A stretch of 64,000 nt of DNA from Amycolatopsis thailandensis. Lineage in GTDB: Bacteria; Actinomycetota; Actinomycetes; Mycobacteriales; Pseudonocardiaceae. A program made the position numbers and the translations under genes. Under the pieces are notes generated by a model. That model was not told the DNA's origin. It searched no databases and saw only the letters and a program-made list of their open reading frames with translations. Every line of letters starts with the position of its first letter. Positions within the stretch are counted from its first letter, which is position 1. This document shows positions 1,770-7,944 of the stretch, one piece after another. The DNA lies in NCBI RefSeq assembly GCF_002234405.1, contig NZ_NMQT01000032.1, positions 1 through 64,000 of the forward strand. The letters run 5' to 3'.

Positions 1770-4103
1770 CTACGGGTAGCTCACCAGGTTGCTCGGCCGC
1801 GTGTCCGGCGGCGTCACCGCCCCCGCGTCGTTGATCACGTGGGTGATGGTCCCCTTGTAGTTCAGCGAGACCGTCACCATGTTGTGGAACCGGACGCCGG
1901 AGCGGTTCGGCACCTCGAACGCGTGGTACAGGTTCACCGCCGGGTTGTCGTTGAAGAAGCAATAGCTGCCCAGGCCCCACGCCTCGTGCGTGGTCACGTT
2001 GTCCCCCACCTTGTAGGCGGCGTACCCGTTGAGCCCATTGGGGCTCTTCCAGCCCGCTTGGTTCGGGACGTCGTAAGGGATCTCGTTCTGGAAGAAGATC
2101 GTCCTGCCGTTCTGGCCGTTCCAGATCACCTGGTACTTCTGGTAATGCTCGACGAACAGGCCGGTCGCCAGCACATTGTCGCCGTTGACGACCACGCCGG
2201 TGTCGCCGGTGTTGATCGTCCAGCCGTAGGTCCCCGCGTTGCCGTGGTCGGCCCGCCAGGCCCAGATGTGGTCGATGATCGTGTCACGGCTGTTGACGAT
2301 CAGGCTGTTCGTCGCCTTCCCGGCGATCTGACCGCCGATCCGGAAGAACACGTCCTGCAACGTCGTCGGGTTGGCCGAGTGGTTCGCCGTCGAGCCGGCC
2401 GGGCCGACGGTGAGCAGCGACTGCGAGTTGGTCGTCCCGGCGTCGAACAGCAGACCCTTGAGCCGGACCCCGTCCACATCGGCGACCTTCATCGCGTCGA
2501 CACCGTTGTCCGGCACCAGCGTCGGGTAGCCGACACCGAGGACGACCGTGTTGGCCTTGGTCACGTTCAGCGTCTGGCTGAGGTGGTAGACGCCAGGCGT
2601 GAAGAACAGGTTGCAGCCCTGGGAGAGGGCGTTGTTGATCGACGACGCCGTGTCCCCCGCCTTGACGACGTAGAACTGGCTCATCGGCAGCGAGCTGCCC
2701 TGGGTGCCGCCGTTGGCCCAGCTCGGCCCGGAAGCGTTGGTACGCAACGAAGGCAGGAACACGCGGTACTTGCCGGACCCGTCCAGGTACAGGTACGGGA
2801 CGTCGCGGGAGACCGGCGTGGTGCCGAGCGTCGTCTCCGGCGGGTTCGGGAAGGTGTTCGCCGGGGCGCCGTTAGTCCCGGAGAACACCATGTTCCAGAC
2901 GCCGCCCTCCCAGCTGCCGTAGCTGCTGTCCCGGGTGTACCACTGCTGCTGCGAGATCGACGCGGTCTTGCCCGAGACCTTGCTGTCGGCGGTATAGCCG
3001 CCGCTGGCGAAGCCGTAGCTGGCCGGGAAGAGGTTCAGTCCGCCGCGGATGTCCATCCGGCGGAACGGCGCGGCCTGCGCGACGGCCCAGCGGGTCGCGC
3101 CGCTGCTCGGCACGACGGCCAGGTTCTCCGTCGAGCGCCAGAAGTTCTGCAGCGCCACACCCTTGTCCGACTCGTTGAACGCGTCGACGGTCACGTCACC
3201 GTTGATGACGACGTCGCCCGGGTTCTGGCCGAGCCCCGCGACAGAGGTGTAGTAGCCGACGTCGTCGTGGATGCCGTTGTACACACCGGGCTTGAACAGG
3301 TGCGCGTACCGGCGTTCGGTGAACTGCGCGGTCAGGGTGTCCTTCTGCGCGTTGAAGTCCGCGTCGAGCTTGGCCTGGATCGACGACGCCGACATGCCCG
3401 GGTCGAAGATCCGCACGTTGGGACCGAAGTCGGGGACCTCGGCCTGAGCCGGGCAGGTCGCCTGCGTCGATCCGATCGTGTAGCTCGCCGACACCACCGG
3501 GGAGTTCGCGGAGCCGGACTTGAGGGCGATCGCGGAAATCGTCGAGGACGCCGAGACGGTGATCGGGCCGGTGTACACAGTGGACGACGCGGTCGGCGTG
3601 GAACCGTCCACCGTGTACCGGATGGTCGCGCCCGCGGTCGCGGACGTCAGCGTCACCGAACGGGCGCTCGGATAGCTGCCGCCCGGCGGGTCGAACGTCG
3701 GCGAAGCGACGGTCGTGCCGCTGCCGCCATGGGTGTAGCCGAAGTGCGGGGTGTCGTACTGCGGCCCGTTCTTCTCGTAGGTGAACCAGTAGTCGAGCAC
3801 CGTGCCGGCCGCGAGCGAACCGACGGTGTGCCGCCACGTGCCCCCGCTGTCGGTCATGCGGACGTTCTGCTGTCCCACTCCCGGGACGCCGGTGTAGTGG
3901 ATGTCCACGTACCGCGCGGCCGTCGCTGGCGTGAAGGAGAACTGCGCCTGGCTCGCGTTCAAGGACGCGGCGCTCTGGCTGTAGTCCGCGGCCGCGGCGG
4001 TGGCACCGCCGAGACCCGCGGCGATCAGGAGCGCGGAAAGGCCTAGGGCGAGCGCGCCCCGGACCCCTTTCCGCCGTTTGGGCTGCACAAAGATCCGGTC
4101 CAC
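1770..4103 (-). CDS. secreted beta-helix protein (GH55-like) with CBM56-like and chitobiase C-terminal-like modules
   Basis: A secreted protein of 777 residues. A basic N-terminus plus a hydrophobic stretch ending in ATAAAA forms a signal peptide. Next is a module with YWFTYEKNGPQYDTPHFGYT, typical of CBM56 beta-1,3-glucan-binding domains. Then comes a chitobiase-C-terminal-like Ig module (FDPPGGSYPSARSVTLTS; IRYTVDGSTPT), followed by a large domain rich in beta-helix repeats (LFFTPGVYHLSQTL, VVLGVGYPTLVP). Glucan binding is a family-level prediction; hydrolysis (GH55-like exo-beta-1,3-glucanase) is inference. The GTG start at 4103 is chosen because GGAGGTG lies 7 nt upstream at 4111-4117. 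The ATG at 4133 has no such site. A DasR-like palindrome lies further upstream. Confidence 0.8.
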   Translation of the reverse strand: MDRIFVQPKRRKGVRGALALGLSALLIAAGLGGATAAAADYSQSAASLNASQAQFSFTPATAARYVDIHYTGVPGVGQQNVRMTDSGGTWRHTVGSLAAGTVLDYWFTYEKNGPQYDTPHFGYTHGGSGTTVASPTFDPPGGSYPSARSVTLTSATAGATIRYTVDGSTPTASSTVYTGPITVSASSTISAIALKSGSANSPVVSASYTIGSTQATCPAQAEVPDFGPNVRIFDPGMSASSIQAKLDADFNAQKDTLTAQFTERRYAHLFKPGVYNGIHDDVGYYTSVAGLGQNPGDVVINGDVTVDAFNESDKGVALQNFWRSTENLAVVPSSGATRWAVAQAAPFRRMDIRGGLNLFPASYGFASGGYTADSKVSGKTASISQQQWYTRDSSYGSWEGGVWNMVFSGTNGAPANTFPNPPETTLGTTPVSRDVPYLYLDGSGKYRVFLPSLRTNASGPSWANGGTQGSSLPMSQFYVVKAGDTASSINNALSQGCNLFFTPGVYHLSQTLNVTKANTVVLGVGYPTLVPDNGVDAMKVADVDGVRLKGLLFDAGTTNSQSLLTVGPAGSTANHSANPTTLQDVFFRIGGQIAGKATNSLIVNSRDTIIDHIWAWRADHGNAGTYGWTINTGDTGVVVNGDNVLATGLFVEHYQKYQVIWNGQNGRTIFFQNEIPYDVPNQAGWKSPNGLNGYAAYKVGDNVTTHEAWGLGSYCFFNDNPAVNLYHAFEVPNRSGVRFHNMVTVSLNYKGTITHVINDAGAVTPPDTRPSNLVSYP

Positions 4104-4209
4104 GTCGTGACACCTCCGGCGTTGGAAATCCACGGGCGAAGCAATTCGTTGCGCGCCACAACAAAGTAACGGTCCGCGAGATATGTCCAGATCACGCTTC
4201 GGTAACAGT

Positions 4210-4225
4210 GGTGGTCCAAACCACT
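4210..4225. promoter_or_regulatory. DasR-type (dre-like) palindrome
   Basis: GGTGGTCCAAACCACT matches the DasR response element A(C/G)TGGTCTAGACCA(C/G)T at 13 of 16 positions. It is part of a longer symmetrical stretch, CAGTGGT...ACCACTG. It lies about 107 bp upstream of the glucan-binding secreted protein, a plausible position for repression of a polysaccharide-degradation gene. No DasR gene is in the window, so the assignment rests on motif similarity. Confidence 0.45.
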
Positions 4226-4292
4226 GACTGGGCCTGTCAGCCGACAGGAAGGCGGCCGTTCGGCGTCACCGAACGGCGCGATCGGACGTGTC

Positions 4293-4748
4293 TCAGCTTT
4301 CCGGGACGACGTACAGCGTCGACGCTTCCCCGCCGTGCATGGCCCTCAGGCTGGTCCGGCAGGCCAGGAGCACCTCGCGGTTCGCGACCGTGTCCGGCGG
4401 GACACCGCAGCCGTCACACGAGAGCTCGACCGATCCCGGGAAGGTCTCGTCGATCTCGACGTCGACGGTGCGATCGCAGCGGCGGCACCACCGGTGCCCG
4501 GTGACGATCAGGACGTGCATCGGATCCGAGACGCACTGGTGCACCCAGCAGCGGTGGACGTAACAGGTCGTCCGGACGTGGGCGCTCAACCCGTGTTCCT
4601 CCGCCACGTCTTCGGCGGCGAGGATCGCGGCCAAGCGACGGTCGGCGATCTCGGCGTACAAGTCCCGGCGCCGGGCCGGCGGGGCCGCGTCGGCCTCCGC
4701 GAGCAGTCTGAGATGAGCCCTAGAGGGTGGCGAAGTACGAAGCACCAT
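4293..4748 (-). CDS. small Cys/His-rich, probably zinc-binding protein (copy 1)
   Basis: A 151-residue protein I cannot assign to a named family. Its C-terminal half carries closely spaced metal-ligand candidates: TCYVHRCWVHQCV, then HRWCRRC, then SCDGCG. These resemble a compound zinc ribbon. The N-terminal half is helical and Arg/Ala-rich without a membrane segment. A divergent homologue lies at 27772-28149 and shares the frame TCxVHxxWxHQCVxxPMHV...HRWCRxC...SCxxCG. The start is ATG at 4748 with an AAAGG-type site upstream. It is divergent from the secreted peptidoglycan-binding gene. Confidence 0.75.
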   Translation of the reverse strand: MVLRTSPPSRAHLRLLAEADAAPPARRRDLYAEIADRRLAAILAAEDVAEEHGLSAHVRTTCYVHRCWVHQCVSDPMHVLIVTGHRWCRRCDRTVDVEIDETFPGSVELSCDGCGVPPDTVANREVLLACRTSLRAMHGGEASTLYVVPES

Positions 4749-4921: not shown

Positions 4922-5752
4922 TTGTTGACCAAGGTTGCCGTGGTCGCGACAGCGGCCGCGCTCTCCTTCGGCGTGGCCGCACCGGCCAGTGCCGAAGTGA
5001 CCGCGGCCGCGTTGCCCGCGGCCAGCATGGAAGCGGTGCTCAAGGCCGCGCAGATCGACCCGCGCCGGGCCGACAGCGCCTTGACTCCGGGTGCCAAGGA
5101 CAGTGTGCTGCTGGTGGAGCAGGCGCTGGCCGCCAAGGGACTGCTCGACCAGCAGTACGTCGACGGTCATTTCGGCACGTCGACGATCACGGCGTATTCG
5201 AGCTACCAGAAGTCGCTGGGCTACACCGGGATCGACGCTTCCGGCCTGCCCGGCAAGACGTCGCTCGAGAAGCTGGGCGACGGCCGGTACACCGTGACCG
5301 CGACGGTCGCGGCGGGTAGCCGGCTGACCTACCACGGCAAGACGATGAACACCCGCACCAAGGCGATGCTGGTGAAGGCCGAGGGTCTGCTCGGCAGGCA
5401 GCTCACCATCACGCAGGGCTCGTACAACCCCGGCGGCGTCGGCGCTTCGGCCGGTACGCACGACGGTGGCGGCGCGCTGGACATCGGCGTCGAAGGCATG
5501 TCCTCGACCACGCGGACCGACGTCGCGCGGAAGCTCCGCCAGGTGGGCTTCGCGGCTTGGGTCCGGACTCCGGCCCAGGGCTTCGCCTACCACATCCACG
5601 CCATCGCACTGTCCGATCCGGACCTCTCGTCCGGCGCGCAGCACCAGGCCGGTGACTACTACCTCGGCTACAACGGTCTCGCCGGCCGGGGCTCCGACGA
5701 CGGCCCCGCCGTCTCCCCGAAGCTCACTTGGGAGGAGTACCAGCGGTCCTGA
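4922..5752 (+). CDS. secreted peptidoglycan-binding protein with M15-like peptidase domain
   Basis: About 276 residues. The start is one of two consecutive TTG codons (4922 or 4925), chosen because GGAGG at 4911-4915 precedes them and a clear signal peptide (VAVVATAAALSFGVAAPASA) follows. Residues about 25-100 form a PG_binding_1-like helical domain (LLVEQALAAKGLLDQQYVDG). The C-terminal half carries GTHDGGGALDIGV and a downstream YHIHAI, matching the H...D...H zinc-ligand pattern of M15 carboxypeptidases. It probably trims or remodels cell-wall peptides outside the membrane. Enzymatic activity is inferred from the motif, not shown. Confidence 0.75.
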   Translation: MLTKVAVVATAAALSFGVAAPASAEVTAAALPAASMEAVLKAAQIDPRRADSALTPGAKDSVLLVEQALAAKGLLDQQYVDGHFGTSTITAYSSYQKSLGYTGIDASGLPGKTSLEKLGDGRYTVTATVAAGSRLTYHGKTMNTRTKAMLVKAEGLLGRQLTITQGSYNPGGVGASAGTHDGGGALDIGVEGMSSTTRTDVARKLRQVGFAAWVRTPAQGFAYHIHAIALSDPDLSSGAQHQAGDYYLGYNGLAGRGSDDGPAVSPKLTWEEYQRS

Positions 5753-5763
5753 CCCCGCTGCCC

Positions 5764-5807
5764 GAAGGCCACCTTCACCGGCGTCGATCGTCGCGAAGGT
5801 GGCCTTC
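5764..5807. terminator. stem-loop after the M15-like gene
   Basis: GAAGGCCACCTTC (5764-5776) is the exact reverse complement of GAAGGTGGCCTTC (5795-5807), with an 18-nt GC-rich loop and no T-run. It lies directly after the stop codon at 5752 and before the folate gene pair. It belongs to the same style of GAAGG palindromes found elsewhere in the window. Confidence 0.6.
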
Positions 5808-5873
5808 AGGCTGCCCGGGAACACCCGGGTAGGCTTCGGCGCGACGGCAAAACCAGCGGGAAGGGAACAACGC

Positions 5874-6497
5874 GTGGAGGCTCAACCGGTCGGTCAGTGG
5901 CTCGACGAGCTGGCTTCGAAGGCCTCGACGCCCGGTGGTGGCGCGGGTGCCGCGATGAACGCCGCGGTCGGTGCCGCCCTGGTCTCCATGGTGTGCAACC
6001 TGACCATCGGCAAGCCGAAGTACGCCGAGCACGAAGCCACCATGACCGAGGCGCTGGGCAAGGCCGAGGACCTCCGGACGCGCGCGCTCGGCCTCGCCGC
6101 CGACGACGCCGCCGCGTTCGACGCGGTGGTCGCCGCGTACAAACTCCCGAAGGCCACCGACGAGGAGAAGAAGGCCCGCACCGCCGCGATCCAGGCCGCC
6201 CTGGTCGGCGCCGCCGAGGTCCCGCTGCGCACGGCCGCTCTCGCCGCCGAGGTCGTCGACGTCGCCGCCTCGATCCTCGAAGGCGCCAACGTCAACGTCA
6301 TCTCCGACATCGCGGTCGCGGCGTCCTCCGCCAAGTCGGCACTCGAGTCGGGCGTGGTCAACGTCGAGGTCAACCTCGCGTCCATGTCGGACGAGCAGCT
6401 CCGCAAGGAGACCGAGGCCCGCCTCGCCGAGTACCTCCCCGCCGCCGGGCGCGCCGACGCCCTCATCTCCCAGGTTCGCGAAAGGCTCGCCCGATGA
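5874..6497 (+). CDS. fchA: FchA/FTCD-type methenyl-THF cyclohydrolase or cyclodeaminase
   Basis: A 207-residue, almost wholly alpha-helical protein of the formiminotransferase-cyclodeaminase/FchA superfamily, which acts on formimino- or methenyl-tetrahydrofolate in the cytoplasm. Family signatures include STPGGGAGAAMNA near the N-terminus, the internal DDAAAFDAV and NVISDIAVAA. The GTG start at 5874 follows GGGAAGGG (5858-5865). Its stop overlaps the ATG of the FolD-like gene by 4 nt (ATGA), so the two are translationally coupled. Since its partner FolD lacks the lysine needed for cyclohydrolase chemistry, a cyclohydrolase role is the likelier reading. Cyclodeaminase remains possible, but no histidine-degradation genes are nearby. 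Confidence 0.8.
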   Translation: MEAQPVGQWLDELASKASTPGGGAGAAMNAAVGAALVSMVCNLTIGKPKYAEHEATMTEALGKAEDLRTRALGLAADDAAAFDAVVAAYKLPKATDEEKKARTAAIQAALVGAAEVPLRTAALAAEVVDVAASILEGANVNVISDIAVAASSAKSALESGVVNVEVNLASMSDEQLRKETEARLAEYLPAAGRADALISQVRERLAR

Positions 6498-7327
6498 CCT
6501 TGATCGACGGGCGCGCGATCGCCGCCGCCATCACCGCCGAGGTCACCGAGACCGCCGCCAAGCTGCGTGAATCGGGCACCGTCCCGACGCTGGCCGTGCT
6601 CGTGCCGACCGACGACGACGCGACCGCCTGGTACGTGCGCTCGATCGAGCGCGCCGCGAAGAAGGTCGGCGTCGACTGCCGGGTGGTCCAGCTCGAGAAG
6701 CCGACCGGCGAAGACGTCACCCGCGAGCTCGACAAGCTGTCGGCGGACCCGGCGGTCCACGGCATCATCTGCCAGACCCCGCTGCCCGAAGGTGTGACGC
6801 TCGACGACGTCGGCGCGCACATCGACCCGCGCAAGGACGTCGACGGCGCCAACCCGGTCAGCCTCGGCCGTCTCGCCGCGGGCCTCCCGACCTACGCGCC
6901 CGCCACCGCCGCCGCGGTGCTGGAGATCCTGAAGCGCGAGCAGGTCGCCCTGACCGGCGCCCAGGTCGCCGTCGTGGGCCGCTCGACCGTCGTCGGCAAG
7001 CCCGCCGCGCTGCTGCTGCTCGGCGAGAACGCGACGGTGACCGTCTGCCACTCCCGCACCAAGGACCTCGCGGCGGTCACCAAGACCGCGGACGTCCTGG
7101 TCGTGGCCGTCGGCCGCGCGCATTTCGCCGGCGCGGACCACGTCAAGCCCGGCGCCGTGGTGATCGACGTCGGCACCAACCCGACGCCCGAAGGCGGGCT
7201 CGTCGGCGACGTCGACCAGGCCGCGGTCGAGGGCATCGCGGGCTCGATCACGCCGGTCCCCGGCGGCGTCGGCCCGGTCACGACGTCGCTGCTGCTGCGG
7301 CACACCGTCACCGCCGCGCAGTCCTGA
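6494..7327 (+). CDS. folD: FolD-family methylene-THF dehydrogenase lacking the cyclohydrolase lysine
   Basis: 277 residues, the normal FolD length. Conserved FolD features are CQTPLP with Gln94, KDVDGANP with Asp117, the NADP-binding VVGRSTVVGKP, and ITPVPGGVGPVT. Aligned with E. coli FolD, Tyr50 is kept (Tyr47 in AWYVRSIERAAKKVG), but the catalytic Lys54 is replaced by Ile51. The PCTPRG segment is also changed, to TYAPAT. In characterised FolD proteins that lysine is essential for cyclohydrolase activity. This protein is therefore probably a dehydrogenase only, with the hydrolysis step supplied by the coupled gene directly upstream. Confidence 0.88.
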   Translation: MTLIDGRAIAAAITAEVTETAAKLRESGTVPTLAVLVPTDDDATAWYVRSIERAAKKVGVDCRVVQLEKPTGEDVTRELDKLSADPAVHGIICQTPLPEGVTLDDVGAHIDPRKDVDGANPVSLGRLAAGLPTYAPATAAAVLEILKREQVALTGAQVAVVGRSTVVGKPAALLLLGENATVTVCHSRTKDLAAVTKTADVLVVAVGRAHFAGADHVKPGAVVIDVGTNPTPEGGLVGDVDQAAVEGIAGSITPVPGGVGPVTTSLLLRHTVTAAQS

Positions 7328-7340
7328 CACACCGGCAGAA

Positions 7341-7372
7341 GCGGCGAGTCCACTGAGGACTCGCCGCTTTTT
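7341..7372. terminator. intrinsic terminator after folD (bidirectional stem)
   Basis: The 11-bp perfect stem GCGGCGAGTCC/GGACTCGCCGC surrounds an ACTGA loop and is followed on the + strand by TTTTT. It is the clearest rho-independent terminator in the window. It ends the fchA-folD operon and also lies just beyond the 3' end of the convergent TetR gene. Confidence 0.9.
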
Positions 7373-7944
7373 CATGCCCCGATCACCGTTTCCACCACCT
7401 TCCGCACCTGCGCCGTCTCGGGCGCGGGCGCGGTGCGGTCGGCGAAGAGCAGATGCGTGGCGCCGATGAGCGTGGCCGCGAGCGTCTCGACGTCGGCGTC
7501 CTCGGCGATCCTGCCCTGGCCTCGTTCCTCTTCGAGGTAGCCGCCGATCATCACGGCGGCCTGGGTCAGCACCGGGACCCCGGCAGGCCACTCGCGGCGC
7601 AACCGGGCGCGCAGCTCGTCACGGAAGATCACGAGCGGGACGATGGCGACCGCGACCGACTCGAAGACCGCGGTGAGCGCCGCCGTGAGGTTGTCCACGA
7701 CGGTCCCGGTGCCGACGGCCTCCCGAAGCCCTTTCTCGTCCAGCTTGTCTATCCGGTCGAGGACGAACTCGGCGAGGAACCCGTCGAAGTCGTCGAAATG
7801 CCTGTGCAGCACGCCTTTCGCGCAGTCCGCCTCCGTGGTCACGGCGCGGCTGGTGAGACCGCTCGGCCCGTCCCGCAGCAGAACACGTTCGGCGGCGTCG
7901 AACAACTGCGCGCGGACGGCGCGCAGGGCTACCCCGGTCGGCAT
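7372..7944 (-). CDS. TetR-family transcriptional regulator
   Basis: A 190-residue repressor-type protein. The N-terminal HTH spans about residues 8-55 (LFDAAERVLLRDGPSGLTSRAV...KGVLHRHFDDFDGFLAEFV), followed by an all-helical ligand domain with no recognisable inducer signature. The ATG at 7944 is preceded by AAGGGAG. It is divergent from a SAM-dependent methyltransferase. Two GTGGGC-type palindromes lie between them, one at the methyltransferase start codon, so it probably represses itself and the methyltransferase. Confidence 0.9.
   Translation of the reverse strand: MPTGVALRAVRAQLFDAAERVLLRDGPSGLTSRAVTTEADCAKGVLHRHFDDFDGFLAEFVLDRIDKLDEKGLREAVGTGTVVDNLTAALTAVFESVAVAIVPLVIFRDELRARLRREWPAGVPVLTQAAVMIGGYLEEERGQGRIAEDADVETLAATLIGATHLLFADRTAPAPETAQVRKVVETVIGA

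Follow-up and report, generated by a model that had tools for sequence, protein, structure and literature searches.

FolD is a housekeeping enzyme and drug target that is usually treated as bifunctional, as exemplified by the FolD/MTHFD enzymes of E. coli (1b0a), Mycobacterium (2c2x) and humans (MTHFD1, 1a4i). The division of its work between a FolD and a separate FchA is already known as a kind, from clostridia: Aluri et al., in 2016, are said to have described a Clostridium perfringens FolD that acts only as a dehydrogenase, with FchA as the cyclohydrolase and formate-tetrahydrofolate (THF) ligase (Fhs) also present. In Methylobacterium, the cyclohydrolase Fch is partnered by MtdA, and neither of two Methylobacterium/Methylorubrum genomes that we searched gave a match to the FolD domain PF00763. 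Yeast MTD1, a monofunctional NAD-dependent dehydrogenase, is eukaryotic and is not known to be paired with FchA. Arthrobacter sp. 31Y carries a FolD2-Mch-PurU cluster while keeping another FolD (PMC5023230); the accessible portion of that account makes no mention of lysine or of lost bifunctionality. The word lysine is absent from the main text of a 2024 paper that surveys this family throughout the tree of life (PMC11064299).

Here we describe an fchA-folD pair from Amycolatopsis thailandensis that can be compared with each of these systems. Its FolD shares both Pfam domains, the whole fold and the equivalents of Tyr50, Gln98 and Asp121 with the bifunctional enzymes, but has Ile for Lys54 and PATAAA for PCTPRG, and differs from them at nine positions in all. 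A predicted dehydrogenase-only FolD with a separate FchA recalls C. perfringens; in contrast to that system, no Fhs was found here, the two genes overlap, and canonical folD has been displaced within one genus. The clade of the window FolD also has Ile with Gln98, where two clostridial rows of our alignment from organisms other than C. perfringens (L302, L305; G and L numbers are our handles for genomes and loci) have Ala with Phe or Leu. The link to Methylobacterium is the FchA homologue, of the family of 7vg4, which we take to be a Methylobacterium protein, and the link to yeast MTD1 is a FolD-fold enzyme with dehydrogenase activity only. The likeness to Arthrobacter sp. 31Y lies in that strain's second, divergent FolD, next to which a methenyl-THF cyclohydrolase is encoded separately (PMC5023230). 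We consider it highly probable that the pair splits the work of bifunctional FolD, with FolD(Ile51) as dehydrogenase and FchA as cyclohydrolase, and that it replaced the ancestral folD in 19 species. The lysine-loss rule was not found among the matches listed in the open-licence literature, nor did those matches include a complete takeover of the housekeeping role that combines an excision scar, the absence of Fhs and an Ile-type clade of actinobacteria.

The fchA-folD locus

Positions refer to the window, the whole 64,000-nucleotide stretch of DNA analysed. The features discussed are the following.

5874..6497, + strand: fchA, predicted methenyltetrahydrofolate cyclohydrolase (FTCD_C fold); GTG start; 207 aa
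6494..6497, + strand: ATGA overlap of the fchA stop and the folD start, from sequence
6494..7327, + strand: folD, predicted dehydrogenase-only methylenetetrahydrofolate dehydrogenase; ATG start; 277 aa
6632..6634, + strand: Tyr47 codon (E. coli Y50), retained
6644..6646, + strand: Ile51 codon ATC, equivalent of the E. coli catalytic Lys54
6773..6775, + strand: Gln94 codon (E. coli Q98), retained
6842..6844, + strand: Asp117 codon (E. coli D121), retained
6899..6916, + strand: PATAAA, the diverged PCTPRG segment, from alignment to E. coli FolD
7337..7371, + strand: intrinsic terminator-like hairpin with a U run directly 3' of folD, from folding

An earlier note on this DNA had described folD as fused by an ATGA overlap to a gene of the FchA/FTCD fold, and both parts of that description hold: the genes share bases 6494-6497 and the upstream product matches PF04961. 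The hairpin behind folD has a 15-bp stem and a folding energy of -28.1 kcal/mol (z -7.6), and none of 200 shuffled sequences was as stable. Given the overlap and this terminal hairpin with its U run, fchA and folD look like a two-gene unit. Among 108 fchA/folD pairs in the fetched loci, where several genomes are counted more than once, 106 have the order fchA>folD on a single strand and 80 have the 4-nt overlap (FolD and FchA matches below 50 bits dropped). This conservation supports coupled synthesis, and the translation of folD would accordingly be coupled to that of fchA.

A simple consensus scan of 5600-7600 returned no sigma-70-type promoter, and its output did not include the hairpin at 7337-7371 that folding detects. 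The window has no Rfam match that would indicate a riboswitch or other structured RNA control, and no tRNA. Separately, the palindrome GAAGGNNNCCTTC occurs nine times in the window, against a mean of 0.05 in 20 mononucleotide shuffles. Its copies lie at 5764-5807 and at 59, 132, 162, 46041, 55002, 57118 and 57148, and they include three pairs with a spacing of about 30 bases, one of which lies upstream of fchA.

The FolD and FchA proteins

Membership of the window FolD in the THF dehydrogenase/cyclohydrolase superfamily is clear from both domains and fold. PF00763 (101.1 bits) and PF02882 (191.6 bits) score above cut-off and span its full length, while its AlphaFold model (pLDDT 96) retrieved 50 listed Foldseek matches that are all FolD/MTHFD structures (TM 0.85-0.96). 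Among solved structures it is nearest to bifunctional FolDs (4b4u, 3p2o and others). In the alignment to E. coli FolD, Y47 V R S I51 faces Y50 V A S K54 with no gap near the site, and five phmmer alignments to solved FolDs likewise place Ile51 over the catalytic lysine. The claim of the earlier note that Ile51 occupies the Lys54 site while Tyr47, Gln94 and Asp117 (E. coli Y50, Q98 and D121) are kept and PCTPRG has diverged, here to PATAAA, is thus borne out. The catalytic lysine of bifunctional FolDs is missing and their Tyr, Gln and Asp are present. Realignment, by which the earlier note had said that its reading could be refuted, placed no lysine in the active site. A relocated lysine was rejected as a candidate, since no conserved lysine was seen in the vicinity; the helix reads YVRSIERAAKKV here and SIVRTAEKV, SIKKAAEKE or SIERAAESA in relatives.

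Ile stands at the lysine position in all 19 near-identical FolD copies of the genus. A comparison of 26 pair-type with 32 canonical FolDs (matches below 30 bits dropped) revealed nine positions that are fixed differently: T39, I51, T95, N120, S123, A137, A139, A141 and V262. At A137, A139 and A141 of the pair clade, canonical FolD has C, P and G. Several of the nine adjoin catalytic residues or fall in the PCTPRG segment, which suggests that the active site has been remodelled rather than left to decay. That mutation of the lysine abolishes cyclohydrolase activity, as the earlier note had stated, has support from E. coli FolD K54N, in which about 19% of dehydrogenase activity remains and cyclohydrolase activity is not detectable (PMC5688156). 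The same source states that carolacton hydrogen-bonds to Lys54 and that K54N FolD is insensitive to it. The window FolD is probably a dehydrogenase only.

FchA (207 aa) has PF04961 as its sole Pfam match (205.8 bits) and no formiminotransferase domain. Its nearest solved chain is the methenyltetrahydrofolate cyclohydrolase 7vg4 (E 8.8e-48), placing it nearer to a solved cyclohydrolase than to formimino-THF cyclodeaminase (FTCD; 1tt9, E 5.5e-25). With the NCBIfam FchA model NF045657 it scores 212.1 bits, below the cut-off of 275. FchA is 95% identical in Amycolatopsis orientalis DSM 40040, and our alignment A1 covers 12 of 22 FchA rows. Judged by these matches, it is very probably a separate methenyl-THF cyclohydrolase.

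The only FolD in the genome and in 18 sister species

In the genome (96.8% complete; 9.35 Mb in 421 contigs), PF00763, PF02882 and PF04961 each match once, always at this locus, so the search for a second canonical folD that had been proposed returned none. It therefore combines a lysine-less FolD with an FchA, the combination by which we recognise a split pair. No Fhs (PF01268) was found in the genome either. With neither Fhs nor a second FolD found, we identified no route to 10-formyl-THF here other than the predicted one through the pair.

Profile searches of the 80 Amycolatopsis species returned by our search extend this picture. In 19 of them the pair FolD, 95-100% identical, is the only FolD, each genome has FTCD_C, and the FTCD_C gene is kept beside folD in all 19. 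Four further species (G166, G182, G183, G201) carry a relative with 56-61% identity together with another FolD that shares about 44% identity with the window's. The remaining 57 have only less similar FolDs, with the lysine present in all 12 that were read (one of them a piece); in this group G171 shows no more than a fragment close to the end of a contig, G153 shows pieces, and G177 and G199 have an additional FolD that is also lysine-less but of a different type. Four of the 80 species have Fhs, and none of these four is pair-only. FTCD_C is present in 35 of the 80, of which 12 lie beyond the 23 with a pair and match more weakly (E 2.8e-42 to 5.6e-4), so FchA-like genes do occur without the pair; FTCD_C adjoins Fhs in G150, G159 and G174.

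The ancestral folD site

In species with canonical folD, the gene lies between one for a protein of about 1000 aa and one for DUF3017. A lysine-bearing folD stands at this site in all six canonical-species loci that we inspected (G194, G197, G141, G150, G201, G152; FolD matches below 60 bits dropped), and in all six pair-only loci inspected (own genome, G207, G054, G085, G151, G219) both neighbours face each other with no folD in between. Each of the 19 pair-only species retains one copy of DUF3017, and about 120 bases separate the start codons of the two neighbours at the empty site of the window's genome. Retention of the neighbours without folD between them indicates that the ancestral gene was cleanly lost. 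Comparison of these loci supports the view that in A. thailandensis and its 18 sister species the pair has taken the place of an ancestral bifunctional folD.

A simple insertion of the pair between old neighbours was not found: the upstream peptidase was sought in 23 genomes, three of them without a match, and in 18 loci from pairless species none of the other neighbours seen in the window lay within about 1.5 kb of the peptidase homologue. We also considered and rejected an assembly gap hiding a second folD, as six of the 19 pair-only assemblies are single contigs and the old locus is intact without folD in six of six. DUF3017 itself (L350 7025-7324, contig C76 of the window's genome, G000) survives alone after the loss of folD, and its retention is thus independent of an adjoining folD.

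Lysine loss and FchA adjacency beyond the genus

The earlier note had asked whether loss of the lysine goes with an adjacent fchA across genomes, and it does. Our phylum sample comprised 110 Actinomycetota genomes, the window's own included, of which 103 have PF00763; all PF00763 matches except the window's own were read, giving 119 FolDs with flanks of about 1-1.5 kb for 30 and up to about 2.5 kb for the rest (FolD matches below 40 bits and FchA matches below 25 bits dropped). One C-terminal fragment without the lysine column (L179) was left out, its N-terminal piece being counted. FchA lay in the fetched stretch of 24 of the 32 lysine-less FolDs and of none of the 87 lysine-bearing ones (Fisher p 1.2e-18, with no correction for relatedness). 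Seven of the eight lysine-less FolDs with no nearby FchA are of the YLE subtype, in genomes that keep a canonical FolD; the eighth belongs to G272, which has neither canonical FolD nor adjacent FchA and whose only FolD is of Leu type (L279). Counted by genome (102, own excluded; FolD matches below 30 bits dropped), 71 have only lysine-bearing FolD, 20 only lysine-less FolD and 11 both. Of the 20, all except G272 (19 genomes) have an adjacent FchA.

Approaching from FchA gives a similar result. In the best 80 of at least 260 confirmed loci, fetched with the FchA alignment (FolD matches below 60 bits dropped), FolD is present in 39 and the lysine is missing from 38 of these, replaced by Ile (33), Leu (2), Val (1), Ala (1) or Thr (1), the Thr-type FolD (L160) being a weak partial match. 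The lone lysine-keeper, from Paenibacillus cremeus (L156), has Gln98 changed to Glu, which may be a different means of losing the cyclohydrolase function. In that locus FolD (3140-3955) lies upstream of FchA (4001-4552), and the genome also has a canonical FolD. Through FchA loci we reached 32 genomes, 29 of them with PF00763 (FolD matches below 30 bits dropped): 19 have only lysine-less FolD, one only the weak Thr type, eight a lysine FolD plus a pair-type or Glu98 FolD, and one only canonical FolD. The last of these, Dormiibacterota G338, has FchA with a canonical lysine FolD as its only FolD.

Related sequences dominate these counts. We dereplicated 220 rows to 165 and built a tree from 92 of these plus E. 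coli, 93 rows in total (trait columns removed, sequences below 240 aa and FolD matches below 30 bits dropped). This tree needs five changes of lysine state and eight of FchA adjacency, and its well-supported branches force only one lysine-state change; a paired sign test cannot reach significance. The lysine-less groups carry Ile with Gln98, Ile or Leu with Leu98 (Chloroflexota), Val, or Ala with Phe or Leu at 98, and these different replacements suggest that the lysine was lost several times. A Leu98/Glu121 subtype (L267, L274, L276-L278, L280, L281; L259, L260, L262, L266, L270, L282, L283; L038) occurs partly in genomes with canonical FolD and partly beside a weaker-scoring FTCD_C protein; seven of its 14 rows in the phylum sample have no nearby FchA, and those seven are in genomes with canonical FolD.

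Discussion

We propose that FolD(Ile51) would oxidise 5,10-methylene-THF to 5,10-methenyl-THF with NADP(+), giving NADPH, and that FchA would then hydrolyse methenyl-THF to 10-formyl-THF. The pair would be the only route found from methylene-THF to 10-formyl-THF, which is needed for purines and formyl-methionine. The two separate activities and the NADP(+) cofactor are what we infer from the proteins' relatives and residues. The suggestions of the earlier note that the pair is a split version of the bifunctional enzyme, and that FchA could supply the missing step, both gain support: no second folD was found, the best solved match of FchA is 7vg4, and lysine loss tracks an adjacent fchA. The earlier note's further idea of a complex that channels methenyl-THF is conjectural, gene coupling being the evidence for it.

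Spontaneous hydrolysis of the methenyl-THF made by FolD(Ile51) could instead supply 10-formyl-THF, leaving FchA as a minor helper or with another job. E. coli K54N lives with undetectable cyclohydrolase activity, which its authors attribute to spontaneous turnover (PMC5688156), so FchA need not be essential, and the Ile-type FolD of plasmid pYJN5-2 has no neighbouring FchA. However, the K54N strain grows very slowly (PMC5688156), and the near-invariable company of FchA, in every pair-only Amycolatopsis species and in all but one of the phylum-sample genomes with only lysine-less FolD, makes this account improbable. We give least credence to the idea that FchA acts in histidine breakdown as a formimino-THF cyclodeaminase, its position next to folD being a matter of chance or of regulation. 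The two do share a fold family (1tt9), but the best solved relative of FchA is a cyclohydrolase, its order and overlap with folD are conserved, and the neighbouring FolD is without exactly the cyclohydrolase lysine.

It is also very improbable that the pair serves here as a catabolic module for methyl-group oxidation and not as a housekeeping enzyme, despite the company it keeps elsewhere. By Pfam/NCBIfam, its neighbours are an FAD oxidase/GcvT fusion, SoxG and serine ammonia-lyase in Amycolatopsis G182 (L286); PurU, an FAD oxidase/GcvT fusion, a MoeA-like protein and FdhD in Pseudarthrobacter (L147); and PurU and an Fdh-like molybdoprotein in Arthrobacter (L144). The fusions at L286 and L147 are presumably of the dimethylglycine-oxidase kind. 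Such neighbours fit oxidation of methylene-THF to formate, and each of the three genomes has another FolD too. Arthrobacter sp. 31Y likewise has its second FolD with a separate cyclohydrolase and PurU (PMC5023230). On the nicotine plasmid pAO1, FolD and PurU are induced (PMC6214936). In contrast, reading the leading 16 kb of the window by eye, we saw no evident C1 cluster around the pair, and neither another FolD nor Fhs was found in the window's genome or its 18 sisters, so here the pair must at least serve biosynthesis too. With gene starts judged by eye, no C1-oxidation cluster was seen at Kutzneria L046, where another FolD is present, or Glycomyces L090. Plausibly, a catabolic module was promoted to sole housekeeping enzyme.

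More speculatively, and in our judgement unlikely as a whole, the split may have been selected because Ile51 and the remodelled site escape natural products that target bifunctional FolD, with FchA restoring the lost step, in a module that arose in methyl-oxidation operons and only later became the sole housekeeping enzyme. If this were true, actinomycetes of the soil would possess a form of an otherwise widespread target that works at full speed and is insensitive to the inhibitors. Whatever its cause, 19 of 80 Amycolatopsis species have lost canonical FolD and run on the putative split pair, with the empty site still readable, which offers a natural experiment on the reasons for keeping both steps in a single enzyme and on the conditions that favour a split.

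The label bifunctional is probably wrong for many FolD genes. The sole annotated copy that we read, on the Paenarthrobacter conjugative plasmid pYJN5-2 (L389 4923-5804), is an Ile-type FolD that bears this label, so annotation-based models and target lists are probably wrong for such genomes. It lies a few genes from an aminobutyraldehyde dehydrogenase, and no FchA was found in the 10.8 kb read around it. Conversely, a Streptomyces globisporus plasmid carries a lone FchA homologue (L390 4001-4648), one gene away from folP, with no FolD in the stretch read. In Nocardia sienata (L320, L165), the sole FolD is of Leu type and FchA is encoded at a separate locus, indicating that the pair can come apart.
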